Source of the DNA: Amphiura filiformis
Taxonomy: Eukaryota; Echinodermata; Ophiuroidea; Amphilepidida; Amphiuridae
Assembly: GCF_039555335.1 (NCBI RefSeq)
Contig: NC_092628.1
Location: forward strand, 77,936,713-78,000,712
DNA: 64,000 nucleotides
Direction of reading: 5' to 3'
Shown: positions 3,220 to 59,005 of the stretch, piece by piece
Numbering within the stretch: position 1 is the first letter of the stretch
Layout of the letters: every line of letters begins with the position of its first letter
Notes under the pieces: model-generated
Databases searched by the model: none
Told to the model about the DNA's origin: nothing
The model's input: only the letters and a program-made list of their open reading frames with translations
Position numbers and translations under genes: made by a program

Positions 3220-3271
<52 letters not shown>

Positions 3272-3336
3272 TTAATTAATTAATTAATTAATTAATTAAT
3301 TAATTAATTAATTAATTAATTAATTAATTAATTAAT

Positions 3337-3415
<79 letters not shown>

Positions 3416-4018
3416 GTCAGTCAGTCAGTCAGTCAGTCAGTCAGTCAGTCAGTCAGTCAGTCAGTCAGTCAGTCAGTCAGTCAGTCAGTCAGTCAGTCAG
3501 TCAGTCAGTCAGTCAGTCAGTCAGTCAGTCAGTCAGTCAGTCAGTCAGTCAGTCATTTGTGCATTTCTCATTTACAATATAAAGGTTCGTCCATAAGATT
3601 GAGACAAGCCCTCCTTCGTAACATGAAGATGTTAGGGACGGATGGAAAGCAGGAAACTCACAAAAACGTAATTGTGTTCGACTTGTAAGTATAATTCAGT
3701 TGTATGTATATGTAAAATATAATTACTTGTATCTTCAATTAATGGTCACTGAGTTTAATAATTTACTTCTTTTTTCTTCCTTCTCTTAAATTATTCTAAG
3801 GTTATAAATAAACACCAGACTTACCAATAACTTTTGTGCTTCGTGTTTTTAACAGGCTAAACATGGATGGACGAATGTTAACCTTTCTCTGCAGGACATG
3901 CCTTGATGCCGTTCTAAAGTGCATTATATCTGACGCTCTGACAGCACCTTGGACTACAGCTAAAGAAGTTTACGGAATCGTGTCAAAATTTTGGACTGTT
4001 ATTTCATCTCATTGGTGA
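1334..4018 (+). CDS. Squalene monooxygenase-like protein, C-terminal part (5 exons)
   Basis: Exons are 1334-1625, 2291-2506, 2760-2879, 3585-3684 and 3856-4018 (TGA). All junctions are GT-AG and all phases agree, giving 296 residues. Squalene monooxygenase is an ER-membrane flavoprotein that epoxidises squalene in sterol synthesis. Support: exon 1 has APLTVVCDGLKSELRK, matching the family's APLTVVADGLFSKFRK flavin segment. Exon 2 has IPGVLLLGDAF, matching the GVLLLGDA motif. Exons 3-5 keep the length and pattern of the membrane-associated C-terminus, ending in a PWTT..EVYG segment. Oddities: the family's NMRHPLTGGG loop, which should follow GDA(F/Y), is replaced by RHTPILVSGI, so flavin or substrate binding may be altered. 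The N-terminal Rossmann half is outside the window. It could be a diverged paralogue with a new role or a decaying copy; the intact frame and splice sites favour an expressed gene. Confidence 0.82.
3181..3556. repeat. Compound tetranucleotide microsatellite
   Basis: A continuous block changes step by step from TAAT units to TTTA units, back to TTAA/TAAT, again to TTTA, and from about 3414 into some 35 units of GTCA. It lies in the fourth visible intron of the squalene epoxidase-like gene, ending about 30 bp before the next exon's acceptor. Confidence 0.95.
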
Positions 4019-6125: not shown

Positions 6126-6525
6126 TAACATAACCTGCTGGTGGTTCAGCCAAAAGCCGTGTATTTAATACAAAATAAGGCATTTTACATGAATCTGTAT
6201 TAGCTACGTGAGTGGGGCTTCAACTTCGTAAATACTGCTGTTTTCTTCGGGTTTTGCTATTTTTTTTATTTTAAAAATATCAAATGACAATTTGAATGAC
6301 TTATCCTTCACTTTTAAGCAAATAATAAACAATATATTTTTTTTTTTTTTTTTCACTGGGATGACTGAATGGGACTTTAAAAATGGAAAACAGCAACATA
6401 CGTGACAAACAAACAAGCCATATACGTTATTACATGATAAACTATTGTCAAACCTATCCGAGAAATAAACATTGCATTGATTCCACACTGTCAACGTCTG
6501 CATTTTTATTTGGTTGAAGGAACAC

Positions 6526-6925
6526 TCCTGCAACCACAACATTATGCCTTATAATGTCAGAAAATTAATTATCAAGCACGAATCAGGTGGTTTTATTTTA
6601 AACAAACCATATTGACCATAAAAGCGAATTAATACAGCCGTCTCTCCACACGCGATATTCAAAATTCCCGGGCGCCGAAATTGTCTAGTACAATGACGTC
6701 CCAGTAATACAATAAAGGCTGGCAACAATTGAGCACAAATAACTATGACGTCATTGCACTAGACAATTTTGGCGGCGGGAATTTTGAATATCGCGTGTTG
6801 AGAGCCGGCTGTATTAATTCGTTTTTATGGTCAATATGAGTTTGTTTTAAATACCGTAAAACCTTATGATTCGTGCTTGATAATTATTTTATAACATAAT
6901 AAGGTATAATGTTGTGATTGCCGGA
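6526..6925. repeat. 400-bp palindromic element with long arms (MITE-like)
   Basis: The left arm (about 6526-6715) is repeated in reverse complement at about 6735-6925. Shared blocks include CACAACATTAT, ATTATCAAGCACGAATCA, CATATTGACCATAAAA, CACGCGATATTCAAAATTCC and TTGTCTAGT.CAATGACGTC. The arms are about 85-90% alike and the unpaired middle is short. The layout is that of a foldback or long-TIR non-autonomous DNA transposon. No target duplication could be fixed. Confidence 0.8.
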
Positions 6926-7644
6926 GACGTCCTTTGAGAAAAGGCATGGGATATAACATATACCGTAGTTCTTTTCTGCAATTATTGAGGAACATTCCTG
7001 TTTCCATTTCCTTGTTAGCGATTTCCATTTCGATTAACTTTTTTTATAAAGTTTGTGATGTTTTACGAATGTAATAAAAGAATATGATAATAATTGTCTT
7101 CTATTCTATTCTATTGTTTTCTATCAATTAAAAAAATAGGCAAATGAGAGAGAAACTTACTTTCTTAACTGTCTCTATTGGAGGTGTCCTCGTGAAAAAT
7201 AACAGTTTCGCGCCAACCCCGGGGCGCCAACCTGCCTCCTCAATTTCCGAGATCATTCCATACTTTTTTTTTAATTTCTCATGTTAAATTTTAAGTTTTC
7301 AATACTTTAAGTAAAATGTTAATTTTAATATAAACAAGTTTATTTTAAGTGGTTTTTTTGTGTGAAACTCTATTAAGGGTCTAACCTTAAAAATAAAAAT
7401 AAAAAAGGCCTCGTCGTTGGTAGCAGATTCTTAAAACTGCTACCAATCAATTGTAGGCCTACTTGGAAAGTGAAAGAACAACGACAACAAAAACACCCCC
7501 TCCCTCCTCACTTTTCCAAAAAGGTGGGGACGTGAAACGAATTTTTAATTTTGTGTGGCCTATTAAGATAAATAATTGGCCGTCTATTATGATTAATATT
7601 ACTTTGCCAAGAAATGATGTTTGTAAAAAGAAAAAGGGTTTTTT

Positions 7645-8277
<633 letters not shown>

Positions 8278-9884
8278 TTATACTGTCTGGGTCAGGCCTG
8301 GGTTGCTGATTTTAGACGCCACCATTCGTCAATCGTCATTCAAAATATAATTTTGCACGTATTTATTATTTTGTAACGTATATTCTATGCGGAAAGAACC
8401 ATAACAAATATAGCAGGTAACGCGTTATTTGTATAAGGAGTAGAACATAGTTTCAAAGCTTTATTTTAAGATTTAATTAAATTTTATAAAAAGTTATATA
8501 TATTGTGATTATGTTTAATGCCAATTTAATGTCACGATTATATGTAATTATATTTTATCTAAAATGTTATTTATCGCTGACCAATTACATCAACAGAACG
8601 TTACATAATCACCGTTGGAAACGGAAAGCTGTGCTGATGCTGTGAAAATGGTCTTGATTTTTCATAATTTCTGACATTAACCGTTACTTCACTGGTGTTC
8701 AATATTAATCCATCAGAAAGAAGAGACTAGTAAGTTTTTACATATCAAAAATGACAATTATTATTCAGTGACTAAGTCAAATTCTAAGCTTAAGCTTACC
8801 TAAAATGAGGTCTTATAAATTTAATGAATGTTGATGAAGTTTTTGTCAGAGCTAGTAGAGAAGAACGGCACTTGTTTACATTTCGAGAGCGTGCAGAGCG
8901 TAATCACGGAAGTGTTGTTGTGATTGGCTGAATCAATCGTTTGACAAAATATTAATTTCTGACATGATCGTGTACTGGGTCTGAACTGTTTCCAATCCAT
9001 ATGAAATCTTGATGGCAAATTGGACAATAGAAGCACATGGATGGTTCTACGTGACAGCTTTTTAATCCCTATTCATGTTACGTGAATCACGCTATTGCGG
9101 ACCATCCTTCTGATACTAGAGTGTTTGGACAAGCGGAACGGTCTTATGTCTACCTCTCTGTTTGTAAACAAACCAGGAGGTCGAAATCGTCCTCCTCGCC
9201 GAATACGAAAGTCAGCGTAATATAGGTAACCTAGGCAAACCTTAGTTAACACATTTTCTAGTCAGCGAATTCGCCGAGACCGGGGCCCCAACACAATGCA
9301 TATTTACATAGAAATTTGAATTTTTTTTTTTGAGAATAGGTGGGTGAAGGAAACCTACATAAATATGTTTTCTATACTTCACTTGACCCAAATATATGAT
9401 TTTTATGGTGATAATCAAGTCGCACATGGAATTTTAGAGGATTTTGATAGCAGTTCCATTAATAAAAGCTGCTCATCGCCATGAGACTAAGATCTAGAAA
9501 CACCCCGAAATGCCGTTTTAGGGAATTTTGCTAGCTGAATCTTTTTGATGAAAGTCAATCTTTGACAAGATGTAACTTTGCTACGGAAAGTGCTATGAAA
9601 AAAGGTTTTCAGTTTTGGCTTAGTTTACTCAAGGGCTTTAATTTGATATATAAAATGATGCAATTTGATGTCAAATTTGAATTCACCTAGTATACCTACG
9701 TAATAGTACGGCACTAGCAACAGACCAATAATCTTGGCCGATTGTGTGTGAAATTGTTTGTCAGCGCAGATCGCACCCTAAAGTTATACGTCGAACAACT
9801 GAATACATGCACAACGTATGGACCAATATATTTTTGTAAACATTTTAGGCCTATAACAAAATGTATATTTTGTTTCTACCCTAT

Positions 9885-28343: not shown

Positions 28344-30479
28344 ATTACCTACGAATACAATTTTTCATAGCACTAGATATATCTTTAAAAATGGAAATCA
28401 CTAATAAATGCGCAATTGATACAAGCTTTGATATGTCCAATACTGAAATGCATTGCATTCGGACATCTTTATTATTGTGTTTAGCTGCCAGAAATTCTAA
28501 ATGGCACAAAGGTAGGTTTGGTAAAAAATATGCATTACCTCCGAATACATGTTAAAAGCTGTGTCATTTCCACAAAGTGAGAGAATAGTAAACAATAGTT
28601 AAGGAATAGGTGCAGGGTAATACACTCTTTATTTCTACCAAGTTTCAATAGCCTGCGTTTAAATGTTTCTGAGATGTCAACAATAAAAGCAAGTATTCGT
28701 AGGTAAATTTCGGTAACCGAATATTACCTCTGAATACAATTTGACATCATGACAGTATTGTGAAACACCGCCATTCATGCCAATGCCCATATTGGTACAT
28801 AATGAAGGCCTGTATGTTTGCTATCAAATCATATGTCAATGAAAGTTGCGAATTCACATACATGCCCACCATGCAAAACCGAACTGGCTTAATTGTTGAA
28901 AAATATGTACTGAAATAGACGACGGTCTGCTCATTTGAAAGAAAAATCAGATTCAAAGAAGATTAGAAGGGATAAATACTTGGATTTGTCAACTGTCATG
29001 TGTGCTTCATTTTAAATGTTTACCGACCTTCTGGTTTCTGAGTAATTTGTGTCCAAATTCATTTATTCGAAGGTAACTTTTGACGTTTTCGCTAAGGTTA
29101 CCTACGAATACCATGGAAAAAACGACTGTTCTCATTGTCTCATGATCTAGACAACACAGTGATGGACCCTGTATAAACCTAATTGTAGTTGCCCTCAAAA
29201 GAAAGGCCACAAGACGTAACCGACTCCAAGGTGGACTTCACAAGTCTGCAATAACGGTTTTAAGCGATTTGTGTGCAATTAATCAAATTAAAGTCACTTT
29301 AGTGCCTTTGTTTCTTACTTAAATCCTCTTTCAACCGCTGTGAACCGACATTATTAATACATGATAGGGTCCTAAGTATCAATAAACGCACATAAAGAAA
29401 ATATTACATTCAAAGTGCTTTATAAAATGAAGTTTTGATTGCGATATCCACCAAAAGTCTAATTCTTACCTACAAATACTGAAATGTTACTTACGAATAC
29501 ACCATAATACATGACATGTGTAATGAAGTGTCCCTGCCAATGGAAATTAATTGTCAAAAACTTTAAGCGGTACCCCAGGACACTATTATTACCCATATAC
29601 GGATTCATTCAACAATTATTTATTATGTAAAATTGCTGATTAACTACTTGTATATCAAAATGAAGTGGTCAAAATCTTGCTAAAAGCATCAAAAATTTTT
29701 GATCTAAGGTAATAGCATTTATTCATTTGGACGTACCATCTGAAAGAGATCTAAAACTACCATTTTATTAATTCATTACCATAATAGCCAAATTTAAACC
29801 TCTAAACTCAATATAGATATTGTTAAATCGCTCATGTTACCTACGAATACCCGGGTTTCTTCACCTTTTCATTGTATAAAGCGTTAGGTGTATGCGTATA
29901 ATTCCTAATATTCTTGAAAACATATATCCTACTCGTTATTATACAATGTGTAAATTGATTCATACTCATTTGATAAATAAAATACAGAAACTGACCTAAA
30001 CTTCATTTTCAAAAATAAACTAGCATAAACTGACAAAGATCATATTGATCGCGTTATAAAAATAAAAACAAATATTTTCTGGTTGAGCTAGAATTTTCCT
30101 GACACCCTGTGGTCTACATTACACGAAAAAAGCGTTAATGGTGTATGCGTTAGGTGTATGCGTATAATTCCTAATATTCTTGAAAACATATATCCTACTC
30201 GTTATTATACAATGTGTAAATTGATTCATACTCATTTGATAAATAAAATACAGAAACTGACCTAAACTTCATTTTCAAAAATAAACTAGCATAAACTGAC
30301 AAAGATCATATTGATCGCGTTATAAAAAATAAAAACAAATATTTTCTGGTTGAGCTAGAATTTTCCTGACACCCTGTGGTCTACATTACACGAAAAAAGC
30401 GTTAATGGGAATATTCCATTTGTTTTAGGTTGATTAGTATTGCGATAGTGAAAGCATCCTAGTGGTATTCGTAGGTAAC
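28344..30479. repeat. Ten dispersed copies of a GTTACCTACGAATAC motif
   Basis: Copies with 0-3 mismatches start at 28344, 28534, 28723, 29097, 29465, 29486 and 29836 on the plus strand and at 28693, 29063 and 30465 on the minus strand. Spacing is irregular (21 to about 630 bp) and the DNA between copies is not repeated, except for the 266-bp duplication listed below. Function is unknown. They could be transposase-binding sites of an unrecognised element, or protein-binding sites. Confidence 0.75.
29881..30408. repeat. Tandem duplication, 266-bp unit, two copies
   Basis: GCGTTAGGTGTATGCG at 29881 recurs at 30147, and the following 260 bp are almost identical. The near identity points to a recent event. 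The unit is non-coding. Confidence 0.95.
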
Positions 30480-31000: not shown

Positions 31001-31622
31001 TAAGGGAAGGGGTATGAACGTTTGGGCAGTATTTATTGTGGGTCATTAGAGCACATCAGACATATCGAATCGCATTCTGAACACGAAGAATGTCCTTCTG
31101 ATATCAAATAATTTTGATTTTTGAAATTCGCAATGTAATACACATTTTATGGCAAATCATTAAAATTGATATTTTTGATATTTAACAGTACTCGAAGTAA
31201 ACTTTATAAATCTGATGATTTATATTTAAAGTGTATGTAGGTGGGATGAAAAGCCGACGATCAATTGAAAATTTTGACCTTTCGTATTGAAGATATGGAT
31301 TTTTTCCCAAAACACCAACAAAAATAGGTCTTTTTCAATTGATCGTCGGCTTTTCCTCCCAGCTACATACACTTTAAGAATATATCATTAAATTTATAAA
31401 ATTTACTTCGAGGACTGTTATATCTCAAAAATGTGAAAAATATCCGAATTTATTAATTTGTCATAAAATTTGTATTATATCGTAAATTTCATAAAATGAA
31501 AATTATTTGATATCAGAAGGACATTCTTCGTATTCAGAATGCAATTTGATATGTCTGATGTGCTCTCATGTCCCACAAAAATACCGTCGAAACGCTCAAA
31601 ACGCTCATTCCAGTTCCCTTAA
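31001..31622. mobile_element. Long-arm TIR element (TTAAGGG family), copy 1
   Basis: The left and right halves are inverse copies: CACATCAGACATATCGAAT, GAAGAATGTCCTTCTGATAT and AAAAGCCGACGATCAATTGA all recur inverted, with ends TAAGGGA and TCCCTTAA. The family recurs at 35205-35355 and 36251-36922. A TTAA at the ends would fit a piggyBac-type target site, but the class is not certain. Confidence 0.8.
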
Positions 31623-31644: not shown

Positions 31645-34600
31645 TTAATGAAATACTAATTCTATAATGGGATACCTGCCCGGGATACCTGATTCCAGCA
31701 ATTCCTTAGTGTGTGGATCATAAACCAACCAATTCCATTCATCTTCATTTTCTAGGGAATTAATAGAGGTCACATAGTTTCCGTGTGTTTCATCATGTTC
31801 TGTGGTGAACCTGAAAGGAAAAAGAGCAATAATATTATTAGCTGACATTTTAGTAATAATTTTACAACCATTTACATGTTCTGATTTCATTACTATTAAT
31901 CGAAGAGGTTTTCAGAGTTTTAGTTGAATCTGCTGACACTTTTATTTGGTATTAAGGAAAAATTCGAGACCTTATACACAAAAGACCATGAAGTATCTTT
32001 ATTATTTATGCAGTTAACAACTAGTAGACTTTTGGCAATATATAAACCAAAATCTTCTGGGCACAATCTCGAATTTTCACTGCTACTCTCGATCAGAATG
32101 GAATGTTTTTATTAAACGAACATACTTTATCATTTTTGTTGTATTGCTAAGCAGTATCCAGAAGCAAAGAGAAATACATAATAAAAGTAAACATCTCAAA
32201 AAAGGTAACTAACCCCCTTAAATAATGACCATTATTCAAAAAGGGGCTATTGTATTACAAATCTGTAAAATGCGTTGGAAGCAGAATTTATTTCAGCCTA
32301 TTTTGACACCACATTTGATACGATAGCCCAGAAAACAATAAAACACCGGTCAATTTAATGTAGTAAGGTCCAGATTTGAAAGTTGCACTTATATACAATA
32401 CAAAAACACTATATCATTACACCGATTTCCTTCCACATACTGAATACAAAATCAATACAATTTACTGCAACTTTCAGATGTTGGGTTACATTGATTTAAA
32501 TGTACGCTGTGACGTCAGTATTTGGTTAATTGCTACAAATGAGGTGTCAAAATGTGCAGAAATAAATTCTGCTTCCAACGCATTTTACAGATTTGTAATA
32601 CAATTGCCCGTTTTTGAATAATGATCATTATTTAAGGGGGTTAGTTACTTTTTTTGAGATGTTTAGTTCGAAATGTTGACCCTTTTAAAATTGCAAAAAC
32701 TAACATTTGACGGCTCTATATGTTTCTAAAATTAGGAATTCTAACACATTTATTGGTCTACAAAGGATTACATTTTTTTTGGCAAGTATGTGTCAAAACG
32801 CCCTCAACTTTGACTTCCAGTCAAACTTCAAGAAAAAACGACAACATCTTATTGTGACAGACCAGAAATACACATACTCAAATTTCTTTGGATGTTGTGA
32901 GTGCGCATCAACTAAGACTTGACCAAGCGTTGAACCAGATGTGGCAATGACAGGCAGATGACATACAGTAGGCCAGGAAGGATCACGATCATTGACAGCA
33001 GTAAACTTCACCTTGATGTTGGGATGACTTGATGCAGAAGATCTCTTCTCACAGTTATCTTATTTGAAATGATAATATCAAAACATTACTTGGTTAAAGT
33101 AGCCCTTAGGGATCAACAAGTTTATCAGGCCATAGACCCTATAGGGTAAAAATCAGGCGTAGGATGTATGATACTAAACTCCTTGGTTCTAAGAGCAAAA
33201 GGCTGCCACCAAGTGCAGATTTGTTTCCCTCTCTTTGGATCATGAATTAAGGGTTCGGTAACAAGTCATCTTTGGGGAAGATAAACTTGTTTCCCTTTAA
33301 GTTCATTTTGATACATTGTAAGACATACCGACATTTTGATGGATATTGGACTTAAAAGCAGGAAGGCCTGAAAACGAAGAATACAGTACATTGTATGTAT
33401 AAAGAAGCCTAACAACATTATTTAAAAAGATATGAAATAAAAGCCAACAATTACTATGGCAAATACCAGACTTATTTAGCTCGATCGCATCACATACCAT
33501 TATTGCATAACACCACTCACCTGGTAATGTTAAATCCTCATTTCCTCCTTCATACAGGTATATATCGTTGATGACTGAAGTAACGTCCATGTATTTCCAA
33601 ACTATGTCACTATCCTTCCCTGGATAAGTCTCGTCAACTCCTGTACGGAAGGTAAGATTGTCACACCAGGATTGGTATTCTTAACTCACTGAGTACATTT
33701 CCGAGAATAATATGACTGCAGTTTATAAGTACAAAGTTAACGCCAAATTTCACTCACAAATAGTAGACATTGCCATGCATTCAAAAACAAAGAGTCGAAA
33801 AAACGTTTCATACCTTTTTCCAGAAGTTGGTTAGTGGTTCCATTAAATACCATCCAGTAGTATGGATGTCTGTTGCATACATCGTTGATGCATTCTACCA
33901 TACGTCCAATAGAGTGTGTAGTATAGTTGAAACTATAAAAGATGTAAGACACGTAACAGTAAAGTGTTTTATCATATTAATTTGTATATTGTTTAAATCA
34001 ATCTACTTTAATTAAGAGCAGAAGAAATACAAAGCATCAGCTAGACGAGCAATGAATGCATGACATACGAAATAAAATATCAAATGTAATTTACGAAAAA
34101 TGCAGGCATCTGCCAAATGTAAATAGTAATAAATGTTGAATATAGCCGTGCACAGAGAAGTGTGGCCCAATCGCTTCAAAAGAGAGCTGGACACTCCGGC
34201 CTATGAAAGCTCAAAGGTGCAGGTCCTGATTGACAGGGCTTACGCCCCCCCCACCCCCTCCCCCATCACCTGTGGTTAGGCCACTAAATTTACCTAAAAT
34301 CCTGAGGAAAGTGATGATTCCCTACGGTCATCACTTGGTATAAATTGGTATTCCTTGGTGTGGAAACATGGAATTGACAATCCGGAGAAGACGGTATGTT
34401 GTCATCTCCACTTACAACTGTCATCAGCACTTTGAATGCCGCGTCTTGATTATCGAAGCCTCTACTGATGGGGCATGTCTCTGAAATGTAAATTCAATGA
34501 TTACTAGCATTTAAAAAAGTTTGAGTGGTCACATTTTATTCAAACCAAAACTAGGAAACTTTTACGTTTTTCCGTGACCAACAGAAATGTTGAGACAGAC

Positions 34601-34900: not shown

Positions 34901-35204
34901 GTTTACAAATGCAGCATGCAAAATCAAATCTGCAAAACGTTTTTGTTTTTTAATTATTTGATTTGCAAATCCATAAAATGCGACACTCACTCATATGCCA
35001 GGATTTGATAATACGTCTAGTCGACTACTATCTTGTCTATTTGTCTTTCGACACTACACAATAGAAGTAAAGTTCAAAGGTCACACACCTGAGTTGAACT
35101 ATTTTGTGAAGTTTGCATAAACTTCAATCTAGTTTCACAAATGCGATTTAACCTCAGGTTTGTTTACACGAGGTTATTAATGAATATAGCATTCTTAACG
35201 CTTT

Positions 35205-35355
35205 GTGTTATATCATGAATTTCAAAAAATAAAAATTATTTGATATCAGAAAGACATTCTTCGTATTCAGAATGCAACTCGATATGTCTGATGTGCTCTC
35301 ATGTCCCTCAAAAAATACTGTCGAAACGCTCAAAACGCTCATTCCAGATCCCTTA
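35205..35355. mobile_element. TTAAGGG family TIR element, one-ended fragment
   Basis: Matches only the right terminal 150 bp of the family (GATATCAGAAAGACATTCTT to CCAGATCCCTTAA). Confidence 0.75.
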
Positions 35356-36250
35356 ATTGCTTATGCTTATCTAATACGTGCCGTTGCTATAAATTATAAA
35401 TCTTTGAAACTGTTTCGTTATAAAATTTATGATCAAAATTCGTTTCGGTTAAGACCAAAATTAGCAAGAAAAGTGCAAAATTTTCTCGTGGAGCCATTGA
35501 AAGTAGTGTCTTGTCTCAGTTTGCCATTTCCCAACTTGGACCGCTGCATTGCTTGCCTGTGTTTTCACAAATGCAAAACCTCTTACTTTTTTCCCCTATC
35601 TTTATAAAATATTAATTGAACATTTATACTGCAAATTGAATGACTCCACTGCCCCATACAGGCCTGCCCGTCACCCCCCCCCCCCCGGCAAAATCCCAGT
35701 ATGCTACTCCTTCAAATCCATAAACAGAAGAAACATATTTACAGCAATTTTGTATGATTTCGGAAATATAATTTTATATTTATTAAAATGATATTAGTTT
35801 TCACTGACAGATATGTTCCCATATTTCATTTTGAGCAGAACTATATGAAATAAAGTAAGAAGGACTCGCTATTTGCAGCACCCAGATCGTGAATGTAATC
35901 GGCGAAGGCTAGCATCTCATTGGTTGATTTAAGATTAACATCACGGGATTAATATTGAATCTCAGATTTTTGTCACAAATATTGCGCCCATAGTGACCGC
36001 ACTTGCAGGTCCCATACCATAGTTGAAGTCTGTGAAAATCGAAAATCTTACACTAGAAGCCTAAATTTCACACCTAAGTTTAACATCAGGGTTTGAAAAA
36101 ATATACAGTACCAAGCATTATAGTTTTCTTCTGACATTTACTGAAAAGAAAAGAAAATTATTGCTTTAAATTAATTTTACATTGAAAAGGTGTAACTCAA
36201 AATTTTGCTAATTTCAACACCAAATTCGATTGTTTGCATTGATTGCCTCA

Positions 36251-36922
36251 TTAAGGGATCTGGAATGAGCGTTTTGAGCGTTTCGACAGTATTTTTTGTG
36301 GGACATGGGAGCGCATCAGACATATCGAATTGCATTCTGAATACGAAGAATGTCTTTCTGATATCAAATAATTTTCATTTTTTGAAATTCACGATATAAT
36401 ACAAAAATTATGACAAATTATTAAAATTTAATATTTTTCACATTTTTGAGATATAACAGTCCTCGAAGTAAATTTTTATAAATTTAATGATATATTCTTA
36501 AAGCGTATGTAGCTGGGAGGAAAAGCCGACGGTCAATTGAAATTTTGACCTTTCGTATTGAAGATATGGATTTTTTTTTCTAAAATGACCTATTTTTTTT
36601 TGTTTTTTGTAAAAGATTCCATATCTTCAATACGAAAGGTCAAAATTTTCAATTAATCGTCGGCTTTTCATCCCACCTACATACACTTTAAGTATAAATC
36701 ATCAGATTTATAAAGTTTACTTCGAGTACTGTTAAATATCAAAAATATCAATTTTAATGATTTGCCATAAAATGTGTATTACATTGCGAATTTCAAAAAT
36801 CAAAATTATTTGATATCAGAAGGACATTCTTCGTATTAAGAATGCAATTCGATATGTCTGATGTGCTCTAATGTCCCACAATAAATACTGTCCAAAGATA
36901 CTGTCAAATACCCCACCCCTTA
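36251..36922. mobile_element. TTAAGGG family TIR element, full-length copy
   Basis: It starts TTAAGGGATCTGGAATGAGC, is built of two inverse halves as at 31001-31622, and ends CCCCACCCCTTAA. It lies about 430 bp upstream of the start codon of transporter copy A. It has no coding content. Confidence 0.8.
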
Positions 36923-43300: not shown

Positions 43301-46300
43301 GGATACATCTAAATTCTTATAAGGAACTTGTCAGGCATGGTGATTGGTGAACTTTTGTATCAATGTATAATACACAAAAGTGAAAAACTAGTCAGAGCAA
43401 AAAACAAAACACAATGTACAACGCAAACAACGGACTACATGAACAAGGAATCAAACGCCACATTGCCGTGAGAGAGCTACAATTCCGAAAAAAACGTGTT
43501 TGAACACCCACTGTAATTCCCATGTTCTTCTTAGTATAGTGCGCACACTATATGAGTCAATGGAAACTAAGGATTGTAGTAGTATTGTCTCAATGTTCAT
43601 CTTAAGCATACCCCTCCCCTTTCCCCACCAAACAATGTTGGGATAAGATATAGTGAAGATGAGCATATTGGGCATGCCAACATTATACGGGGTAGAAGAG
43701 GGACCATTTCCAATAAGGCCTTAAAAGGATTCGAACAATTATTTCTAAGATTGTAGAATTGTAAGATTTGAGTTACATAACTAAACGTTAACGTGGATTT
43801 TCTCAATGCAGGAGTTTCTCACATTGTTCGAGGTCCATACGCAGATCTTGAAGACAGTGTTACTGGCTTCGTCGTGACTACCATATTGTACATCTTATTT
43901 TCTATTGTTAATCTCATCTCCATATTGGAAGTGCAATATCTGACATTTGCATTGCAAGTGATAACAAGAACATTTTTCTACGCAATTGCTGTAGCAATTA
44001 TACCAATTATGTAAGTTAATTAATTAATGATTATCATTAAAGATTACTTAGTATGGGATATCAATATTGTCCAGGATGTATGTGCATGGAAGATTTGAGT
44101 CTATTAAATAAGCTATATCATGCCGGGTGGCATCTAAACCGTAGACGAATATATGTTGTCAAGCAAAATCAGTCTGAAGTAGGCATACTACACTGGAATT
44201 TCAGTGACTCAAGACAAGCGGTACGTTATTTATGATGAGAAAAGAGGTACCGCTAGAATGTACCTCATTTCTTAACATATAATGAACCACTTGTCTTGAA
44301 TCACTGAAATTTCAGTTAAGTAATTTCTTAACATATATAATGAACCACTTGTCTTGAATCACTGAAATTTCAGTGAACATTTGTTAACAAAGTTACGACA
44401 ATTTGAACACCGGCGGTACATTAAAAAGAAAGAAACGGATCGAGAAAATCAAGTTAGAGTATGATGTAAATACATAGTCAACTTAACAACGATACCTTTG
44501 CTGGTTTAAGATATGGCTACGTAATTTGGCATAACAAAACATAAAATCCGAGCTGCTTTTGGAATAATTTTACGATTTTTGACAATTATCGAAGTTGGAG
44601 GGGAGAGGGGGGGGGGGTCACTTTTTTAACATTTTCATTAGAAATATGATCTCTTAATCTGGCCCGCACGGAAACAACACATTAGTCCGAGTCCGAAAAG
44701 TGGTACTACACCCCTGATAAATTTTGTGAGTAATTTTGTATTTTTCTCAAAAAATAACTACACACTGGTAGCAAAAGTCATGTATATTATAGGGGCAAGG
44801 AATCCAATTACTTATATTACTTGCTTAAGATGAGTGGTGTCCTCGAACTACAACAGCACGCCAAACCCTTCTGTCCTGCATGGCCGTCCCCAAATCATTA
44901 TATGTTAAGAAATGAGATACATTCTAGCGGTACCTCTTTTCTTATCATAAATAACGTACCGCTTGTCTTGAGTCACTGAAATTCCAGTGTACAGTAGTAA
45001 CTGGATATCTTTTGTTACCAGTGTGTTATTATTTTTTGAGAAAAATGCAAGAATAGTCACAAATTTATCAGGAGGTGTAGTACCATCTTAAAGTTAGGGA
45101 TTAGGGCATTTTAGGTTACGATTAGAGTTAGGGATAATGTAAGAGTTAGGGTTAGCATTGGGGTTCGTGTTAGGGATAGGGTTAGGTCATAGTTATGGCA
45201 AGTGTTATAGTTTGGTTTTTAGGTTAGGGATATATATTTACGGCTAGAATTAGGGCTTTTAAAAGTTATTGAATAGGGTTAGGGTGTAAACCTTGCGTTT
45301 GTGGGAAGAGAAGAAACTTTTAACCTATTACGTCGCTCTTGATCAGTTTAAGATTCAGCTTAATTGGTAGAGCATGCACACAAAAAGCAAACTTTGAATC
45401 CTGAATAGCTGAAATGATTTTATGTATTTTTTTTTCTCTCTATAGGTTTCCCAGCAGGTACTTTGGATCACTTTTTGGACTTCTATCAACTACGGGAAGT
45501 GTGGTTTTACTCCTACAATTTCCACTTTTCTTGTTAACTCAGCATGTATTTGACGATGACCCATTGGTGGTAAGTCAATATAACTCATGATAAGATTGAT
45601 TCTTGTCGTGGCTGTTTACATCTTTTTCTGCTGAAAAGATGCATGTTCATCCAAATTTACAAGGCACATTGAGTAATTTTATTTTATCTCTACACAGTAA
45701 AAATGTGATGTAATTCTACGGAATTTTTTGACGAAGAATATCTATATTATTATGGAAACATTTTTACGGAATAGTTTCGGCAACTTTTTAGTAGGGGAAT
45801 TTCAGTAATGTTATTTTTTACTTAAGATATAGCTTTCAACATGTAAATATTATTTATTTTAAGAAACCTAAACCTCCCAGGACTACAGTCTCAACGCATA
45901 TCTGATCAAACTTTGAGGACGAGAAATTTGATTTCAGATATTCTAATTTGAATCAAATTTGGAAATTTGAACTGGTCCTAAATCAATGGCATTTAAAGTT
46001 TTAATAATTCATTATAGTCATATGAATTGCAAAAAGTTATAAAACGACATTAGAGTCCATGATATTACAAGAAGTGATAAATCTACGTTATAGTCAATGG
46101 TATAGTAAGAAGAAGTAACACTACGTTATAGTCAATGGTATTGCAAGAAGTGGTAAAACTATATACGTTATAGTCAATGGTCAAAACTACGTTATAGTCA
46201 CTGGTAGTGCAAGAAGTTTTAAAACTACGTTATAGTCCACGGTATTGCAAGAAGTGGTAAACTACGTTATAGTCAATGGTGCTGCAAGAAGTGGTAAAAC

Positions 46301-47755
46301 TACGGTATAGTCAATGGTATTGCAAGAAGTGGTAAACTACGTTATAGTCAATGGTACTGCAAGAAGTGGTAAAACTACGTTATAGTCCACGGTATTGCAA
46401 GAAGTGGTAAAACTCCGTTATAGTCCACGGTATTGCAAGAAGTGGTAAAACTACGTTAAAGTCCATGGTATTGCAAGAAGTGGTAAACTACGTTATAGTC
46501 AATGGTACTGCAAGAATTGGTAAAACTACGTTATAGTCACTGGTATTGCAAGAAGTGGTAAAACTACGTTAAAGTCCATGGTATTGCAAGAAGTGGTAAA
46601 CTACGTTATAGTCAATGGTACTGCAAGAAGTTGTAAACTACGTTATAGTCAATGGTATTGCAAGAAGTGGTAAAACTACGTTATAGTCAATGGTATTGTA
46701 AGATATGGTAAACTATACGTTATAGTCACTGGTATTGCAAAAAGTGGTAAAACTACGTTATAGTCAATGGTACGGCAAGAATTGGTAAAACTACGTTATA
46801 GTCACTGGTATTGCAAGAAGTGGTAAACTACGTTAAAGTCCATGGTATTGCAAGAAGTGGTAAACTACTTTATAGTCCGCGGTATTGCAAGAAGTGGTGA
46901 AACTACGTTAAAGTCCATGGTATTGCAAGAAGTGGTAAACTACGTTATAGTCAATGGTACTGCAAGAAGTGATAAAACTACGTTATAGTCAATGGTATTG
47001 CAAGAAGTGGTAAAACTACGGTATAGTCCATGGTATTGCAAGAAGTGGTAAACTACGTTATAGTTAATGGTACTGCAAGAAGTGATAAAACTACGTTATA
47101 GTCAATGGTATTGCAAGAAGTGGTAAACTACGTTATAGTCAATGGTACTGCAAGAAGTGATAAAACTACGTTATAGTCAATGGTATTGCAAGGAGTGGTA
47201 AAAGTACGTTATAGTCAATGGTATTGCAAGATGTGGTAAACTACGTTATAGTCACTGGTATTGCAAGAAGTGGTAAAACTGCATTATAGTCAATGGTACT
47301 GCAAGAAATGGTAAAACTGCATTATAGTCAATGGTACTGCAAGAAGTGGTAAAACTACGTTATAGTTCATGGTATTGCAAGAAGTGGTAAAACCTCGTTA
47401 TAGTCAATGATAGTGCAAACACACGAGTTACAACACATCTTAGGAAAGCTTTGAGAATTAAATTTGGACTTTGTGGATTTACCTAGTAAATACCGATATA
47501 ATTTTCAAGAAATTTCAAGAATCCAGCCCTTGCCATTTTTAACTTTAAAAAGAGCAAAAATCCAACTGGTGTCTCCACTTAAATTTGAAATTATACTGTA
47601 TCAATATCTCTCTTTCTTTTTTCTTCCAGATCAATGCAATTCTTCTCATCGCTTGTCTATTCACACTAACCTTGCCGATTTACATATTCATTTCCACGAA
47701 AAGGAAAAACAAAGAAATAGGTTCACGTAGGCAAAACAAAGTCTTAATTGGGTAA
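37348..47755 (+). CDS. SLC43A3-type membrane transporter, tandem copy A (9 exons)
   Basis: Exons are 37348-37655, 38581-38704, 39439-39531, 40173-40359, 40534-40716, 43094-43192, 43812-44010, 45446-45569 and 47630-47755. All introns are GT-AG with matching phases, and the protein is 480 residues. The family is an MFS carrier of the plasma membrane. Vertebrate SLC43A3 is an equilibrative purine nucleobase transporter, while SLC43A1/2 carry neutral amino acids. Closest to A3: GW..LV.V.K.E.FY..LC in TM1/loop 1, IGNLF..H..T......GAFDSS.AVF, TFLLMP.DHI, QL.....VGTLN and QYLTF.LQVI.R. Loop 1 has a cysteine pair (C44, C61) and a sequon at N46. G87-R99 (GVLFDNLGTRFTR) is the MFS loop 2-3 motif. Compared with copy B, indels after residue 470 put the tail in another frame, shortening it by about ten residues. 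A tiny upstream ATG-GTG-TTC-TGA lies about 28 bp before the start. Confidence 0.92.
41157..41382. mobile_element. Small TA-flanked TIR element in intron 5 of copy A
   Basis: CAGGGTGTATCAAAATGATT at the left is mirrored as AATCATTTTGATACAGCTTG at the right, and both ends abut TA. Size and TA target fit a Tc1/mariner-type MITE. Intron 5 of copy B lacks it. Confidence 0.8.
44191..44989. mobile_element. TA-flanked TIR element, 0.8 kb, in intron 7 of copy A
   Basis: About 90-bp terminal inverted repeats begin CACTGGAATTTCAGTGACTC and include CAAGACAAGCGGTACGTTAT. The flanks are TA on both sides. The interior lacks a transposase frame. Next to the left TIR, the CTTGTCTTGAATCACTGAAA phrase is repeated twice more. 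It fits a Tc1/mariner-type non-autonomous element. Confidence 0.8.
45080..45300. repeat. Degenerate interstitial TTAGGG repeats
   Basis: A dozen or more GTTAGGG/TTAGGG-like words are scattered through about 220 bp of intron 7 of copy A, many as AGGGTTAGG. The array is eroded. TTAGGG is the telomere unit of most metazoans. Confidence 0.75.
46010..47418. repeat. Minisatellite, 37-38 bp unit, about 37 copies, intron 8 of copy A
   Basis: The unit reads CTACGTTATAGTCAATGG then TATTGCAAGAAGTGGTAAAA, with subtypes (CACGG or CATGG for AATGG; TACTGC for TATTGC). Length alternates by one A. It occupies most of the last intron, ending about 210 bp before exon 9. Intron 8 of copy B has a handful of degenerate units of the same sequence. 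Confidence 0.95.
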
Positions 47756-47866
47756 TAGAGGCATCGACTTCTCTAATAAGACTTGGACATGAACAAAGCT
47801 TTTAACATGTTTGCAGTTGAACTATTCTGTGTCACAGCCCATAAAACTGCCATCATAATATCGTGG

Positions 47867-48135
47867 GCTTAGAGCCAGATCTAGCTATGTCCACAATTAC
47901 ATGTTACTCATTTCGGCAACAAATGGACGGTTAATTCTGCCCTCTATAATATAATGTGACTTTGGGGTATGTACATCATGGCCACTTGCGTCTAACTAAC
48001 CATGCTAACTGTTTAAGTGACCATGCATATACCCCAAAGTCACTTGCATTTAGTTTGGAGATCATAATTAACCATCCATTTGTTGCCGAAATGAGTAACA
48101 TGTAATTGTGGACATAGCTAGTTCTGGCTCTAAAC
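47867..48135. repeat. 270-bp palindrome
   Basis: AGAGCCAGA.CTAGCTATGTCC, TACATGTTACTCATTTCGGC and ACTTTGGGGTATG are each mirrored at the other side. The centre of about 60 bp is unpaired. It is a foldback MITE-like unit just 3' of copy A. Confidence 0.8.
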
Positions 48136-48484
48136 CTATGCAGAGTATAGGAGTATGGCGGGTGAAAATGCCGTCACACTGTAATGTGACAATTTCGACG
48201 ATCGACCCTGGATCGCGAGGGTCTTTTATATCAAAGAATACGCCTGAAAAAGTTGATGTAAAATGAAGAGTCGTTATATGGATGACCGATTACATCTTCT
48301 CTGGGATGACCTATCATTCTTAATATGGAAAAAGGTCCATCGGTGTTTTGAAGAAAATGGGACAATCTACCAATTTTTTGCAGGATATTTGAGTTCATCT
48401 AATTTTACATTGGTGTAGAAATCATAATTTGAGAGCAAAATAACCATCAATAAATTAAATTTGCCATTATCGTGTGTTTTATTC

Positions 48485-48488
48485 GCAT

Positions 48489-48555
<67 letters not shown>

Positions 48556-48556
48556 T
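48485..48556. repeat. (TTTA)n array, left border of the Penelope-like element
   Basis: About 18 pure TTTA units directly adjoin the Penelope-like terminus, as happens at 8036-8090 and 49663-49774. Confidence 0.9.
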
Positions 48557-48586
48557 AAACAAAAAGTAATGCAAAAATTAAATTTT

Positions 48587-48629
48587 TATGCAACTGGCAG
48601 TTTCATCCATGATGGAATCATCAGGCATA
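48587..48629 (-). ncRNA. Hammerhead ribozyme motif (Penelope-type), copy 1
   Basis: On the minus strand: TATGC, CTGATGA, stem II TCCA/TGGA with a 3-nt loop and a U-U pair at its base, GAAA, a 3-bp stem III ACT/AGT, cleavage site GTT, then GCATA closing a 5-bp stem I with TATGC. All core positions are canonical. The U-U at the base of stem II, where a G-C is usual, may slow the reaction. The small stem III is typical of retroelement hammerheads. Confidence 0.72.
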
Positions 48630-49125
48630 CTGATCTTAAAACTACATTACAAGCACACACATATATAAATACAATCGTTATACACTTGACATAAACTGCT
48701 TGAACTTAAGCTACAATAGTCCATCATAAAACGAGTTAGTTGAAGTTGTGAAAAACCGTCAAACTGTCTTAATTCCGGGACTGATGGCGTCGGTTTGCTG
48801 CTTTTGAAGCCGTATGTTTCTTTTTTGGCAGTCTCTGTCTGTCTGAGGAAGAAGAAAGCCTTCCACCTCATCCTGTGTATTAGACTTTCAGTTTTTTCGA
48901 TCATCCTCTTGATGAAGTTCGAGTGCGTTGGGATCGGTATGTTTTTGGTGCTGTAGTCGAATTTAACTTGCTGCATTGTTGATGCTGGTGAAGTCAAAAA
49001 GTGCTCTACCGAAGATTGGGAGCGATATATACGAAGTAGATAAAGCTGACTTGCCAGTAAACAAAGTGCTCGATCCGTAAGGAGAGCGTAAGTATAAACA
49101 AAAAGTAATGCAAAAATTAAATTTT

Positions 49126-49168
49126 TATGCAACTGGCAGTTTCATCCATGATGGAATCATCAGGCATA
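49126..49168 (-). ncRNA. Hammerhead ribozyme motif (Penelope-type), copy 2
   Basis: Identical to copy 1 over the whole 43-nt motif, and same strand, about 540 bp apart. It marks the other terminus of the minus-strand unit, so a transcript across the unit could be trimmed at both ends. Confidence 0.72.
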
Positions 49169-49522
49169 CTGATCTTAAAACTACATTAAATTCGACTACA
49201 GCACCAAAAACATACCGATCCCAACGCACTCGAACTTCATCAAGAGGATGATCGAAAAAACTGAAAGTCTAATACACAGGATGAGGTGGAAGGCTTTCTT
49301 CTTCCTCAGACAGACAGAGACTGCCAAAAAAGAAACATACGGCTTCAAAAGCAGCAAACCGACGCCATCAGTCCCGGAATTAAGACAGTTTGACGGTTTT
49401 TCACAACTTCAACTAACTCGTTTTATGATGGACTATTGTAGCTTAAGTTCAAGCAGTTTATGTCAAGTGTATAACGATTGTATTGATATATGTGTGTGCT
49501 TGTAATGTAGTTTTAAGATCAG

Positions 49523-49565
49523 TATGCCTGATGATTCCATCATGGATGAAACTGCCAGTTGCATA
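49523..49565 (+). ncRNA. Hammerhead ribozyme motif (Penelope-type), copy 3
   Basis: Same 43-nt sequence on the plus strand: TATGC 49523-49527, CTGATGA 49528-49534, stem II 49536-49546, GAAA 49548-49551, stem III 49551-49559, predicted cleavage after 49560, stem I close 49561-49565. Confidence 0.72.
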
Positions 49566-49662
49566 AAAATTTAATTTTTGCATTACTTTTTGTTTATACT
49601 TACGCTCTCCTTACGGATCGAGCACTTTGTTTACTGGCAAGTCAGCTTTATCTACTTCGTAT

Positions 49663-49775
<113 letters not shown>

Positions 49776-56100: not shown

Positions 56101-57862
56101 TGGTCGGGAAATGCAGTGGATCCATGTAACAAGGTTCAAATTCAGCAGCATTGATTTGATTTAAAAAATGTACTTGTCTTGATCAGAAATATTGTCGTAA
56201 GTTTAGGCCATCAGTATTCACAATCCAGTACCAACTTATTACTATATTAGCTAACCTGTCATTGGGGGGGAACAGAAGAGCTCGTCAACTGATCCAGTGT
56301 CCAGAGTTATTATAGCTCATTCCCTCGTTTCAAATTATACGTTTTCGTTTTTCATTTTGTTCAGAAACCACTAACACTCCGCCCCACCCACCCACACACA
56401 AAAATACTGTTTCCCTCTCTCTTCTCATTTCTTTCGAGTAATAAATAACTTTTATAACAGTCAAATAGCCTATATTGGAAGTCATATATCTTTCTATCGA
56501 CCCTCCTACATACGATAAGTACATGAATAGATGTTGTTTATATCACTGTAGTATCTATTCTTTTGTAATCTCGAGAGCAAATATTTCGACGTTCTATACT
56601 TTTTGACAGAGCAATTAGCCTAGGCTTATTAGATTTTCTATACCACGCTTTTAAATGTAGATTGACATATACTCGATTTCTCTGCTCGTGAATATTGCAC
56701 TTTATATGAAACTTTAACATTTCTTTTGTGTACTTAGATCAGGTCACTTCAAACCAAGCGAGTATGCGTTCACACTGAAATGAAAACCAAAACTACTTTT
56801 AAGTTTCTAACAAAGGGTACAGACAAAGATATCGATAATGATGTCAGTCAAGAGCTTAGGCAGGATAACGAAACCACGTGACCAAAATCAATACTGAAAC
56901 TCAATATTTGAAACGACTGAATGTGCAGAACACCAGACAACAAAAATCTATTTTTTGTGCTCCATATAGGTTTCCCAGCAGGTATTTTGGATCACTTTAC
57001 GGACTTCTATCAACTACGGGAAGTGTGGTTTTACTCCTACAATTTCCACTTTTCTTGTTAACTCAGCATGTATTTGACGATGACCCATTGGTGGTAAGTC
57101 AATATTTGTGTCAAAATATATCATTGATGTTACCTTTTTATGATTTATTCTTAGCGTGGCTGCAAGTTTTTTCTAACGTTAGTTGCAGTAAAATCAAATC
57201 TAAGTTAATACCGGAAGAAGAATTTCCATATTCTTAGTATTTTTACGGAATACTTTTACGGAACAGTTACTTACGACAACTTTGTTGTCGGGAAATTTCA
57301 GTAATCGTATTTTTTTAGATAGCTTGCAAATTGTAACATTATAGTCAATAGAATTGCTAGAAATGGTAAATTGCAATGGAGTCAATGGTATTGCAGGAAA
57401 TGGTACTGCAAACCACATTATAGTCAATGATATGTTATTGCAAGAACTTGGTGATCTGCATTATAGTCAATGATATATTGCAAGAGTTGGTAAAAGCATA
57501 TTTGAGTCAATGATATTGCAAGAAGTGTTAAAACTACATTATCAGATGAAAATTATATACTTAGTTCTCAAGGTTGATGGATGAACAAATTTTAATCTTT
57601 ACCCATGAGCAGCCAGCGCACATAGACGTTGAAAAAAACCCATCCAAAACAGTGCATCTGGTCGGTTTCGAACCGGCGATCTTCGTATTACTAGCACGAC
57701 GCTCCAACCAATTAAGCCAAAGAGGCATGCTGGAGAAGAGCGGGAGATTCCTCGATCTTACTGATATTTCAGCACAACAGTAGCATGTATACAATGTAAA
57801 AAGTGTTTTTTGCCACACCCTACTGCACATGGAGTATGAAATTTCTCAAAATAGCCCGCCAA

Positions 57863-57893
<31 letters not shown>

Positions 57894-58457
57894 AGTAATG
57901 AACTAAAGTTTCTTCAGAGAGTGCTCAACTTTAAGTGTAAAGGAGCGATAAATAAATAAATAAATATACAGATGGATCAGTTCATTAAATTTTATTCATA
58001 TCCTACAAACTTGTTTCAAGAAGACTGCTGTCTCCTCTCATCAGGGATAGTCAAATGTAATGAAAACAAAACAAAACAAGATGAAGTGTATCTTTCCTGT
58101 GCGTAATTGCGGAATTAGCGTGCGCATTTAACTCTCGCGCGCGCATTTAACTCTCGCGCGAGTATAGGTTGTGTCTACGCGAGATTAGCGCATGCCGACA
58201 TGCGGCAAACTTCAAACTGAAAAATCTCGCGTAAAAATCTCGCGTAGACACAACCTATACTCGCGCGAGAGTTAAATGCGCGCGCGAGAGTTAAATGCGC
58301 ACGCTAATTCCGCAATTACGCACAGGAAAGATACACTTCATCTTGTTTTGTTTTGTTTTCATTACATTTGACTATCCCTGATGAGAGGAGACAGCAGTCT
58401 TCTTGAAACAAGTTTGTAGGATATGAATAAAATTTAATGAACTGATCCATCTGTATA

Positions 58458-58498
<41 letters not shown>

Positions 58499-59005
58499 TG
58501 TATAATGCGTACAAGTAATACAAGTATTGAAACACAATTATGGTTCGAATTTAAGAGTGTATGAATTGATTTTAATGAGGAATACGTGAATGAAGTGGAT
58601 AATGTCTATTGAAAGGAATGATAAAGGTACATTATAGTCAATTTGCATTTAAGCAAGTAGTAAAACTACGGTATTGTAAGAATTTACAAACTACATTGCA
58701 GTCCGTGGTATTGCAAGAAGTAAATGTCAAAGAAAATGGTTTTCCAATCCCATTATTGCTTCCACTTCAATTTGAAATGATAATCCCTGTTTTATTTCAT
58801 TATTTCTTATCATTATAGTTTTCTTTCTTTCTACTTTTGTTTTTTCCAGATCAATGCAATTCTTCTCTTCGCTTGCCTTCTTACACTTACCTTACCAATT
58901 TATTTATTCGTTTGGACCAAAAGGAAAAACAACGAAATCGCTTCGCGTGAGGAAAATATAGGCTTGGATAATGAAGGCATCGATCTTTCAGAAACTTGGA
59001 AATGA
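50131..59005 (+). CDS. SLC43A3-type membrane transporter, tandem copy B (9 exons)
   Basis: Exons are 50131-50438, 51505-51628, 51971-52063, 52449-52650, 53777-53959, 55195-55293, 55587-55785, 56970-57093 and 58850-59005 (TGA). Phases and exon lengths equal copy A, except exon 4 (15 nt longer, adding residues around LYDLPIKGHG in the central cytoplasmic loop) and exon 9 (30 nt longer). The protein is 495 residues, close to the 491 of human SLC43A3. It keeps the loop 1 cysteines, the sequon, the GVLFDNLGTRFTR motif and the GAFDSSAAVF segment. Exon 1 is roughly 95% identical to copy A, so the duplication is fairly recent. Its introns carry different transposons from those of copy A. An ATG at 50121, out of frame and overlapping the start, could reduce initiation. 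AATAAA at about 59045 is a possible poly(A) signal. Purine nucleobase transport is inferred from family; the substrate is not provable here. Confidence 0.93.
50521..51026. mobile_element. hAT-like non-autonomous element (CCCGGGGG family), 506 bp
   Basis: The ends are CCCGGGGG..GCACT and its inverse AGTGCCCC..CCGGG, flanked by an exact 8-bp duplication GACGATGT (50513-50520 and 51027-51034). The interior repeats phrases of the type CTCACC(C/G)AATGCCC and CCCATATTTTTTAC. It lies in intron 1 of copy B and is absent from copy A. Confidence 0.88.
51314..51437. repeat. Short TIR repeat in intron 1 of copy B
   Basis: AGGAAGTCCCACCAGAGCA is mirrored as TGCTCTGGCGGGACTTCCT, about 125 bp in all. It is a MITE-like unit, 68 bp upstream of exon 2. 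Confidence 0.75.
52698..53594. mobile_element. Non-autonomous TIR element, 0.9 kb, in intron 4 of copy B
   Basis: Terminal inverted repeats of about 45 bp: CTTCGGTTATATTTATAAAT with GCGCTTTAATAAATACG is mirrored at the right end. The interior is AT-rich without a transposase. It is absent from copy A intron 4, which is only 174 bp. Confidence 0.75.
54231..55115. mobile_element. TA-flanked TIR element, 0.9 kb, in intron 5 of copy B
   Basis: The ends CAGGGTGAGTCAAAAA and TTTTTGACTCACCCTG are inverse and flanked by TA. This fits a Tc1/mariner-type element without its transposase. The position differs from the TA-flanked element of copy A intron 5. Confidence 0.85.
57337..57543. repeat. Degenerate minisatellite units, left part, intron 8 of copy B
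   Basis: Five to six diverged units with the phrases CATTATAGTCAATG and TATTGCAAGAA.TGGTAAA, clearly related to the large array at 46010-47418. They are separated from their continuation at 58612-58722 by inserted repeats. Confidence 0.85.
57655..57726 (-). repeat. tRNA-Thr-like SINE head or tRNA pseudogene
   Basis: The minus strand reads like tRNA-Thr(AGT): TTGGCTTAATTGGTTGGAGC for the D arm, a CTAGTAA anticodon loop, and GCCGGTTCGAAACC for the T arm. The 3' acceptor strand does not pair with GCCTCTT at the 5' end, so it is unlikely to be a working tRNA. A SINE derived from tRNA-Thr is the better reading. Confidence 0.6.
57999..58049 (-). ncRNA. Hammerhead ribozyme motif, palindrome left arm
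   Basis: Exact reverse-complement copy of the motif at 58373-58423, read on the minus strand. Same core, stems and GTA cleavage triplet. Confidence 0.82.
58373..58423 (+). ncRNA. Hammerhead ribozyme motif, palindrome right arm
   Basis: TATCC (58373-58377), CTGATGA (58378-58384), 8-bp stem II GAGGAGAC/GTCTTCTT with loop AGCA (58385-58404), GAAA (58405-58408), stem III ACAA/TTGT (58408-58417), cleavage after A58418 (GTA triplet), GGATA (58419-58423) closing a 5-bp stem I. Every invariant core nucleotide is present. It is type I in layout with the very short stem III known from Penelope-like and retrozyme hammerheads. Confidence 0.85.
58612..58722. repeat. Degenerate minisatellite units, right part, intron 8 of copy B
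   Basis: Two to three diverged units (CATTATAGTCAATTTGC, AGTAAAACTACGGTATTG, GGTATTGCAAGAAGT) continuing the array interrupted after 57543. Exon 9 begins about 130 bp further on. Confidence 0.8.

Follow-up and report, generated by a model that had tools for sequence, protein, structure and literature searches.

A palindrome with two outward-facing hammerhead-like motifs in an intron of an SLC43-like gene of Amphiura filiformis: a probable Penelope-type retroelement copy

The last intron of an SLC43-like gene in the window (the whole stretch of 64,000 nt of Amphiura filiformis DNA that was analysed) contains a palindrome, which is probably a copy of a non-autonomous hammerhead retroelement of the Penelope-like element (PLE) type, its terminal-repeat region having been doubled head-to-head on insertion. 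Judged from its sequence, it carries in each arm a hammerhead-like motif, a candidate ribozyme. The insertion mode of PLEs and the purpose of their hammerheads are presented as open questions in the available parts of two papers (PMC11167929, PMC7761336), and a near-perfect head-to-head copy with a candidate priming footprint is well suited to tests of the self-priming model of PLE insertion. A deleted PLE with a like motif and a paralogous intron devoid of the insertion add to its value for such tests. Among the titles and abstract beginnings surveyed, which cover part of the literature, none concerned hammerheads paired head-to-head within an intron of a host gene. The coordinates of all features are given in Table 1.

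The palindrome and its host intron

A base-by-base check of the inverted repeat (57948-58186 // 58236-58474) showed that its arms are 239 nt long with one mismatch (57951/58471), and perfect over 235 nt, in agreement with the identical arms of about 235 bp announced by the earlier note. The half-unit, made of the spacer and one arm, measures 288 nt and has a GC content of 0.385. No ORF of at least 100 aa was listed in 57948-58474, and no reverse transcriptase or endonuclease sequence was seen in the palindrome; the ORF for a telomerase-like reverse transcriptase and a GIY-YIG endonuclease that characterizes autonomous PLEs is therefore lacking, and the palindrome was not classified as an autonomous PLE because no coding sequence is visible in it.

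No second copy of the palindrome unit, direct tandem copies included, was found within the window. The exact hammerhead core had no copies in viral contigs or in prokaryote genomes, and a plasmid search for further copies returned 30 records, the 20 listed all having an E-value of 9, which was taken as chance. Rfam MIR538 matched twice over 58122-58300, with 77.9 and 76.4 bits for a cut-off of 100; an MIR538 identity was rejected, and these sub-cut-off scores were attributed to the long hairpin.

Compared with solved chains, the first exon of the host gene matched LAT4 (E 1.6e-12) and equilibrative nucleobase transporter 1 (E 3.8e-11). This SLC43-like gene is the second of two tandem copies. 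The intron that contains the palindrome has GT-AG ends and is directly followed by the exon that holds the stop codon, which confirms the location in a host intron claimed earlier. The last intron of the first copy matches it at both ends, and a related 38-bp minisatellite is present in both introns; the segment 57543-58606, which includes the palindrome, has no counterpart in the paralogous intron except simple repeats. In the first gene the minisatellite occupies 46178-47418 (38-bp units, 32.9 copies), and short relics of it persist in the second. A tRNA-Thr(AGT)-like cloverleaf, either a tRNA gene or a tRNA-derived SINE, lies in the same intron as the palindrome (57652-57726, minus strand).

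Arms that are perfect over 235 nt might be produced by an assembly error, a single arm being mirrored from fold-back reads. We consider such an artefact very improbable, because the paralogous intron gives an approximate empty site. The two flanks differ; further out, beyond 405 unmatched nt on the left side and 132 on the right, they correspond to both ends of the paralogous intron and to its exons. The asymmetry of the 49-nt spacer and the single mismatch between the arms also argue against a mirrored arm.

Table 1. Positions and strands of the features discussed (window coordinates)
Feature	Position	Strand	Remarks
Last intron of second SLC43-like gene, contains palindrome	57094..58849	+	GT-AG ends
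Paralogous last intron, first SLC43-like gene, without palindrome	45570..47629	+	approximate empty site
Left arm of palindrome	57952..58186	-	235 nt perfect; 239 nt with one mismatch counted from 57948
Right arm of palindrome	58236..58470	+	235 nt perfect
Spacer between arms	58187..58235	.	49 nt, asymmetric
11-nt copy of right-arm start, within spacer	58223..58233	+	complementary to left-arm inner end
(TTTA)n, left-arm outer end	57949..57964	-	
(TTTA)n, right-arm outer end	58458..58469	+	
Putative one-sided tail of left arm, to (TA)n tract	57891..57948	-	
Type I hammerhead-like motif, host-gene sense	58373..58423	+	51 nt; predicted cut 58418/58419
Mirror hammerhead-like motif, antisense to host gene	57999..58049	-	51 nt
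PLE, apparently internally deleted, head-to-head, outward-facing	48554..49664	.	(TTTA)n on both sides; 9 kb from palindrome
PLE terminal repeat	49503..49664	+	162 nt; hammerhead motif 49523-49565
Identical PLE terminal repeat, opposite orientation	49027..49188	-	hammerhead motif 49126-49168
Partial PLE terminal repeat (positions 1-96)	48554..48649	-	hammerhead motif 48587-48629
ORF fragment, N-terminus of Penelope-like reverse transcriptase protein	48647..48976	-	
Second ORF-fragment copy, opposite orientation	49187..49505	+	99.7% identical to first
Fragment of PLE terminal repeat (positions 40-96)	8035..8090	-	56 nt; within (TTTA)n

The hammerhead-like motif and its predicted folding

Each arm carries one motif, and both motifs point outward. 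The core consists of CTGATGA, GAAA and the cleavage triplet GTA; stems I, II and III have 5, 8 and 3 bp, the pair of stem II next to the core being G-U and stem III ending in a loop of 4 nt. The motif thus has the CTGATGA...GAAA...NUH core, the three helices and the opening at stem I of a type I hammerhead. The frequency of such a structure by chance was measured in 4538 dinucleotide-shuffled windows with a descriptor specifying CTGATGA, GAAA, a flush stem II, a stem III of at least 3 bp and NUH, the two copies in the palindrome being counted as one event. Matches with both stems I and II of at least 3 bp were obtained 45 times, and those with a stem II of at least 4 bp and a stem I of at least 5 bp three times; none combined a stem II of at least 7 bp with a stem I of at least 5 bp. 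The hammerhead fold of the 51-nt motif is beyond chance, and its earlier description (core, triplet and three stems in each arm) is confirmed, no shuffled window being as good. A relaxed descriptor gave 251 matches in 3682 shuffled windows and only five in the window itself, at two loci, the palindrome and the PLE. The stability of the 51-mer is not unusual, since 37 of 200 shuffles fold equally well or better; for segments of 66 and 147 nt that include the sense motif, 61 of 200 and 41 of 200 shuffles, respectively, were as stable.

The earlier note was prepared to give up the motif if covariance-model scores fell below threshold, and this is literally what happened, as no hammerhead family matched. 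In searches run without an independent positive control, the Rfam hammerhead families gave no match at gathering score, none at E <= 5 on the window and none at E <= 10 on 1001- and 76-base stretches. This result is not decisive, because the PLE-associated motif of the window, itself a candidate ribozyme, was also missed by Rfam, and because the published survey of animal hammerheads, in the available part of its text, used motif descriptors (RNAmotif; PMC7229834).

Long inverted termini are also a property of foldback or MITE-type DNA transposons, in which a hammerhead-like motif would be present by chance. Other self-palindromes do exist in the window, for instance at 36281-36896 (82%), 31015-31598 (80%) and 6517-6934 (81%), as do spaced pairs of 93-98% identity (for instance 35202-35357 // 36250-36405, 44189-44285 // 44895-44991 and 32185-32317 // 32536-32668). 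A transposon of this class is nevertheless an improbable origin for the hammerhead palindrome, given a hammerhead fold beyond chance. Its target duplication does not exceed 2-4 nt; for the 14 boundary pairs examined (three of them for the hammerhead palindrome) a duplication of 2-4 nt or none was found, and this test was likewise empty for the other palindromes of the window, hence uninformative. Together with a fourth repeat at 47866-48136, the three self-palindromes have arm identities of 79-82%, the first two forming one family; they are perhaps older foldback or MITE-type elements.

Folding was predicted with energy models that include neither tertiary contacts nor proteins. In RNA 57097-58849 the arm duplex had a probability of 0.977 and the hammerhead pairs 0.000, a value also obtained for the RNA running from 57948 to 58423. 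When the left arm opposite the motif was omitted by starting the RNA at 58050 or 58100, stem II reached 0.98, and stems I and III remained at or below 0.07. In 51- or 81-nt RNA the motif formed stem I at 0.78-0.90, stem II at 0.98 and stem III at 0.11, and in longer single-arm RNA stem I decreased to 0.002-0.03. The 43-nt hammerhead motif of the PLE gave 0.067, 0.008 and 0.694 for stems I, II and III, other structures being favoured; either folding predictions may say little about motifs of this kind, or the PLE motif may itself be weak.

The earlier suggestion that pairing of the arms masks the ribozyme is supported by the arm-duplex probability of 0.98. Self-cleavage of the host pre-mRNA, which the same note had thought possible, is not, because the left arm, transcribed first, pairs with the right arm; in these models cleavage of the host pre-mRNA appears unlikely. 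A working intronic ribozyme, whose sense hammerhead would cut within the last intron of the transporter pre-mRNA and tune expression, would fit the complete core, the GUA triplet, the sense orientation and the stems I and II predicted in 51- and 81-nt RNA. It is extremely unlikely in view of the absence of hammerhead pairs when the whole left arm is present, the weak stem III, the low stem I of longer single-arm RNA and the paralogous intron, which has no such motif. The mirror form probably keeps the ribozyme closed in the host transcript. The arms would form one long hairpin that masks the ribozyme, and all of it would be removed with the intron. The insertion is probably neutral. Action of the hammerhead would be confined to transcripts that start in the loop or contain one arm. 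The palindrome illustrates why an intronic sense hammerhead need not cut its host transcript. The Cpeb3 ribozyme, which is not known to be a hammerhead, offers a comparison. It is also a self-cleaving motif in a host intron (PMC10919898, available part), the palindrome motif being likewise intronic but predicted to be masked by its inverted copy.

The head-to-head arrangement might be a functional state of the element, the ribozyme being masked in read-through host RNA and active only in RNAs that initiate within the loop or whose hairpin is opened. Such a state would render intronic insertions harmless and let element-initiated RNAs self-process; we give it very little credence.

A neighbouring Penelope-like element

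The PLE located 9 kb from the palindrome appears from its ORF to be internally deleted. Residues 1-108 of this ORF matched 73 of 95 candidate proteins at E <= 0.01, and 58 of the 73 are 617-824 aa long. A telomerase-like reverse transcriptase fold is expected of PLEs. The model of one relative, P0001, had a pLDDT of 82, and its nearest solved folds include telomerase reverse transcriptases, which come first in both lists, in structural comparisons that cover residues 1-478. We read the C-terminus of these relatives as GIY-YIG-like. A profile of 16 PLE proteins had no match among PDB sequences. In a Pfam scan of six of the 73 relatives, four had no match and P0021 had a reverse transcriptase match below the cut-off; the weak match of P0002 was judged irrelevant. 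Neither of the two ORF fragments of the window matched a Pfam family, and a search of viral contigs for a relative of the PLE confirmed none.

Two observations concern the structure of the PLE itself. The fragment at 8035-8090 and the partial copy at 48554 end at the same internal position, 96, which suggests a recurrent end point in the terminal repeat. Two of the hammerhead motifs of the PLE (48587-49168) are in direct repeat on the minus strand, 539 nt apart, and the repeated unit retains the beginning of the ORF. The template RNA of the Anolis Penelope element has to include the first 172 nt of its ORF (PMC11167929, available part); the direct-repeat unit could behave like a mini-Penelope or a retrozyme.

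Similarity between the palindrome and the PLE was sought in the terminal repeats. BLAST of the arms against the PLE terminal repeat aligned only the 22-nt (TTTA)n end. TATA ends 39 nt after the predicted cut in the palindrome and 38 nt after it in the PLE, and at both loci (TTTA)n adjoins this TATA in at least one copy. The left-arm end with the 57 nt beyond it aligned with the post-cut part of the PLE terminal repeat with a score of 45, which was reached by 9 of 2000 shuffles, or by 3 of 2000 when a longer PLE stretch was used. The score was also compared with those of real window positions, the background leaving out the two compared loci and the (TTTA)n-rich stretches 7600-8300 and 3150-3450. 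It was reached at 8 of 4638 positions and, in the reverse test, at 1 of 4634; global scoring gave 4/4638 and 2/4634, and shortening of (TTTA)n gave 10 and 7 of 4638. When the (TTTA)n-rich stretches were kept, the background rose to 25/4731 and 7/4729 positions, at least four of these seven being the PLE fragment at 8035; with (TTTA)n shortened as well, 10/4731 positions reached the score. The tail beyond the left arm was by itself no better than shuffles (329 and 417 of 2000). The post-cut similarity is weak to moderate support for a relationship between the two loci, because the likeness had been noticed before it was tested; it exceeds the background but is sensitive to the treatment of (TTTA)n.

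Origin of the palindrome and comparison with known systems

The palindrome consists of head-to-head inverted repeats with a palindromic junction, as do published PLE copies, and from comparison with the neighbouring PLE its hammerhead motif is taken to lie inside a terminal repeat. That PLE also has its hammerhead motifs head-to-head, which supports the earlier reading of the arms as terminal repeats joined in inverse order. Hammerheads of Penelope-like elements were reportedly described by Cervera and de la Pena in 2014 and by Lunse in 2017.

For Adineta vaga Penelope families, inverted copies of the terminal repeat have been published, together with palindromes where the inverted repeats join and a preference for the head-to-head arrangement, and self-priming was proposed there for inverted terminal repeats (PMC3846280, available part). 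Those families resemble the palindrome in their head-to-head inverted terminal repeats and palindromic junction. The same text, in which the word hammerhead does not occur, describes for them a tail that may be present on one side, insertion into AT-rich targets and a target duplication that varies. The palindrome differs from them in being only the terminal-repeat-like part, with no coding sequence and copies 49 nt apart. Inverted pLTRs are named a peculiarity of PLEs in the available part of another paper (PMC8969392). In Anolis PAc a type I hammerhead motif lies in the PLE terminal-repeat region, as in the palindrome, and AT-rich sites are targeted; its hammerhead cut only with its protein, and cleavage was dispensable for insertion in vitro (PMC11167929, available part). 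(TA)n is present on both sides of the palindrome, after the right arm and at the far end of the sequence beyond the left arm (57864-57948). It fits the AT-rich targets of PLEs, and the flanks could represent a one-sided tail with a (TA)n target duplication, in a repeat too simple to constitute proof.

The start of the right arm recurs as an 11-nt copy in the spacer, and none of 200000 letter-shuffled spacers, in which base composition only was kept, contained it. There is a 13-nt tandem pair at this copy, whose register is shifted by 13 nt relative to the arms. We propose that it is the footprint of a cDNA end that folded back and copied itself. An RNA with a hammerhead near its 3' end would have been reverse-transcribed by a PLE enzyme acting in trans; the growing cDNA would have folded back via the 11-nt complement AATCTCGCGTA / TACGCGAGATT and served as its own template, leaving an asymmetric loop flanked by two arms that face outward, and the product would have been fixed in an AT-rich site of the intron. 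The 13-nt offset might tentatively be attributed to slippage. This model operates on sense RNA, unlike the antisense template argued for in the available part of PMC3846280, and the data fit either.

The main rival to a PLE origin is that the half-unit is the monomer of a metazoan non-LTR retrozyme, here inverted, and not a Penelope terminal repeat. In size and GC content it falls within the approximately 170-400 nt and the low GC of retrozymes, with which it shares a type I motif and the lack of an ORF of at least 100 aa (PMC7229834, available part). Helix III, with 3 bp and a tetraloop, exceeds in length that of minimal PLE hammerheads, which may act as dimers (PMC7761336), and is nearer the invertebrate type (PMC7229834), again as described in the available parts of these papers. 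Retrozymes are normally direct tandem and form circular RNAs, whereas the palindrome is an inverted pair and the window holds no direct tandem copy of its unit; we find this origin rather unlikely. The two readings overlap, because PLEs are named strong candidates for mobilising retrozymes (PMC7229834, available part), and a retrozyme may be mobilised by the same enzymes.

Outside the loci described above, the window contains a direct duplication at 29881-30408 (262 nt, 99.6% identity) and an ORF fragment at 1298-1630 that matches squalene epoxidase (Pfam PF08491).
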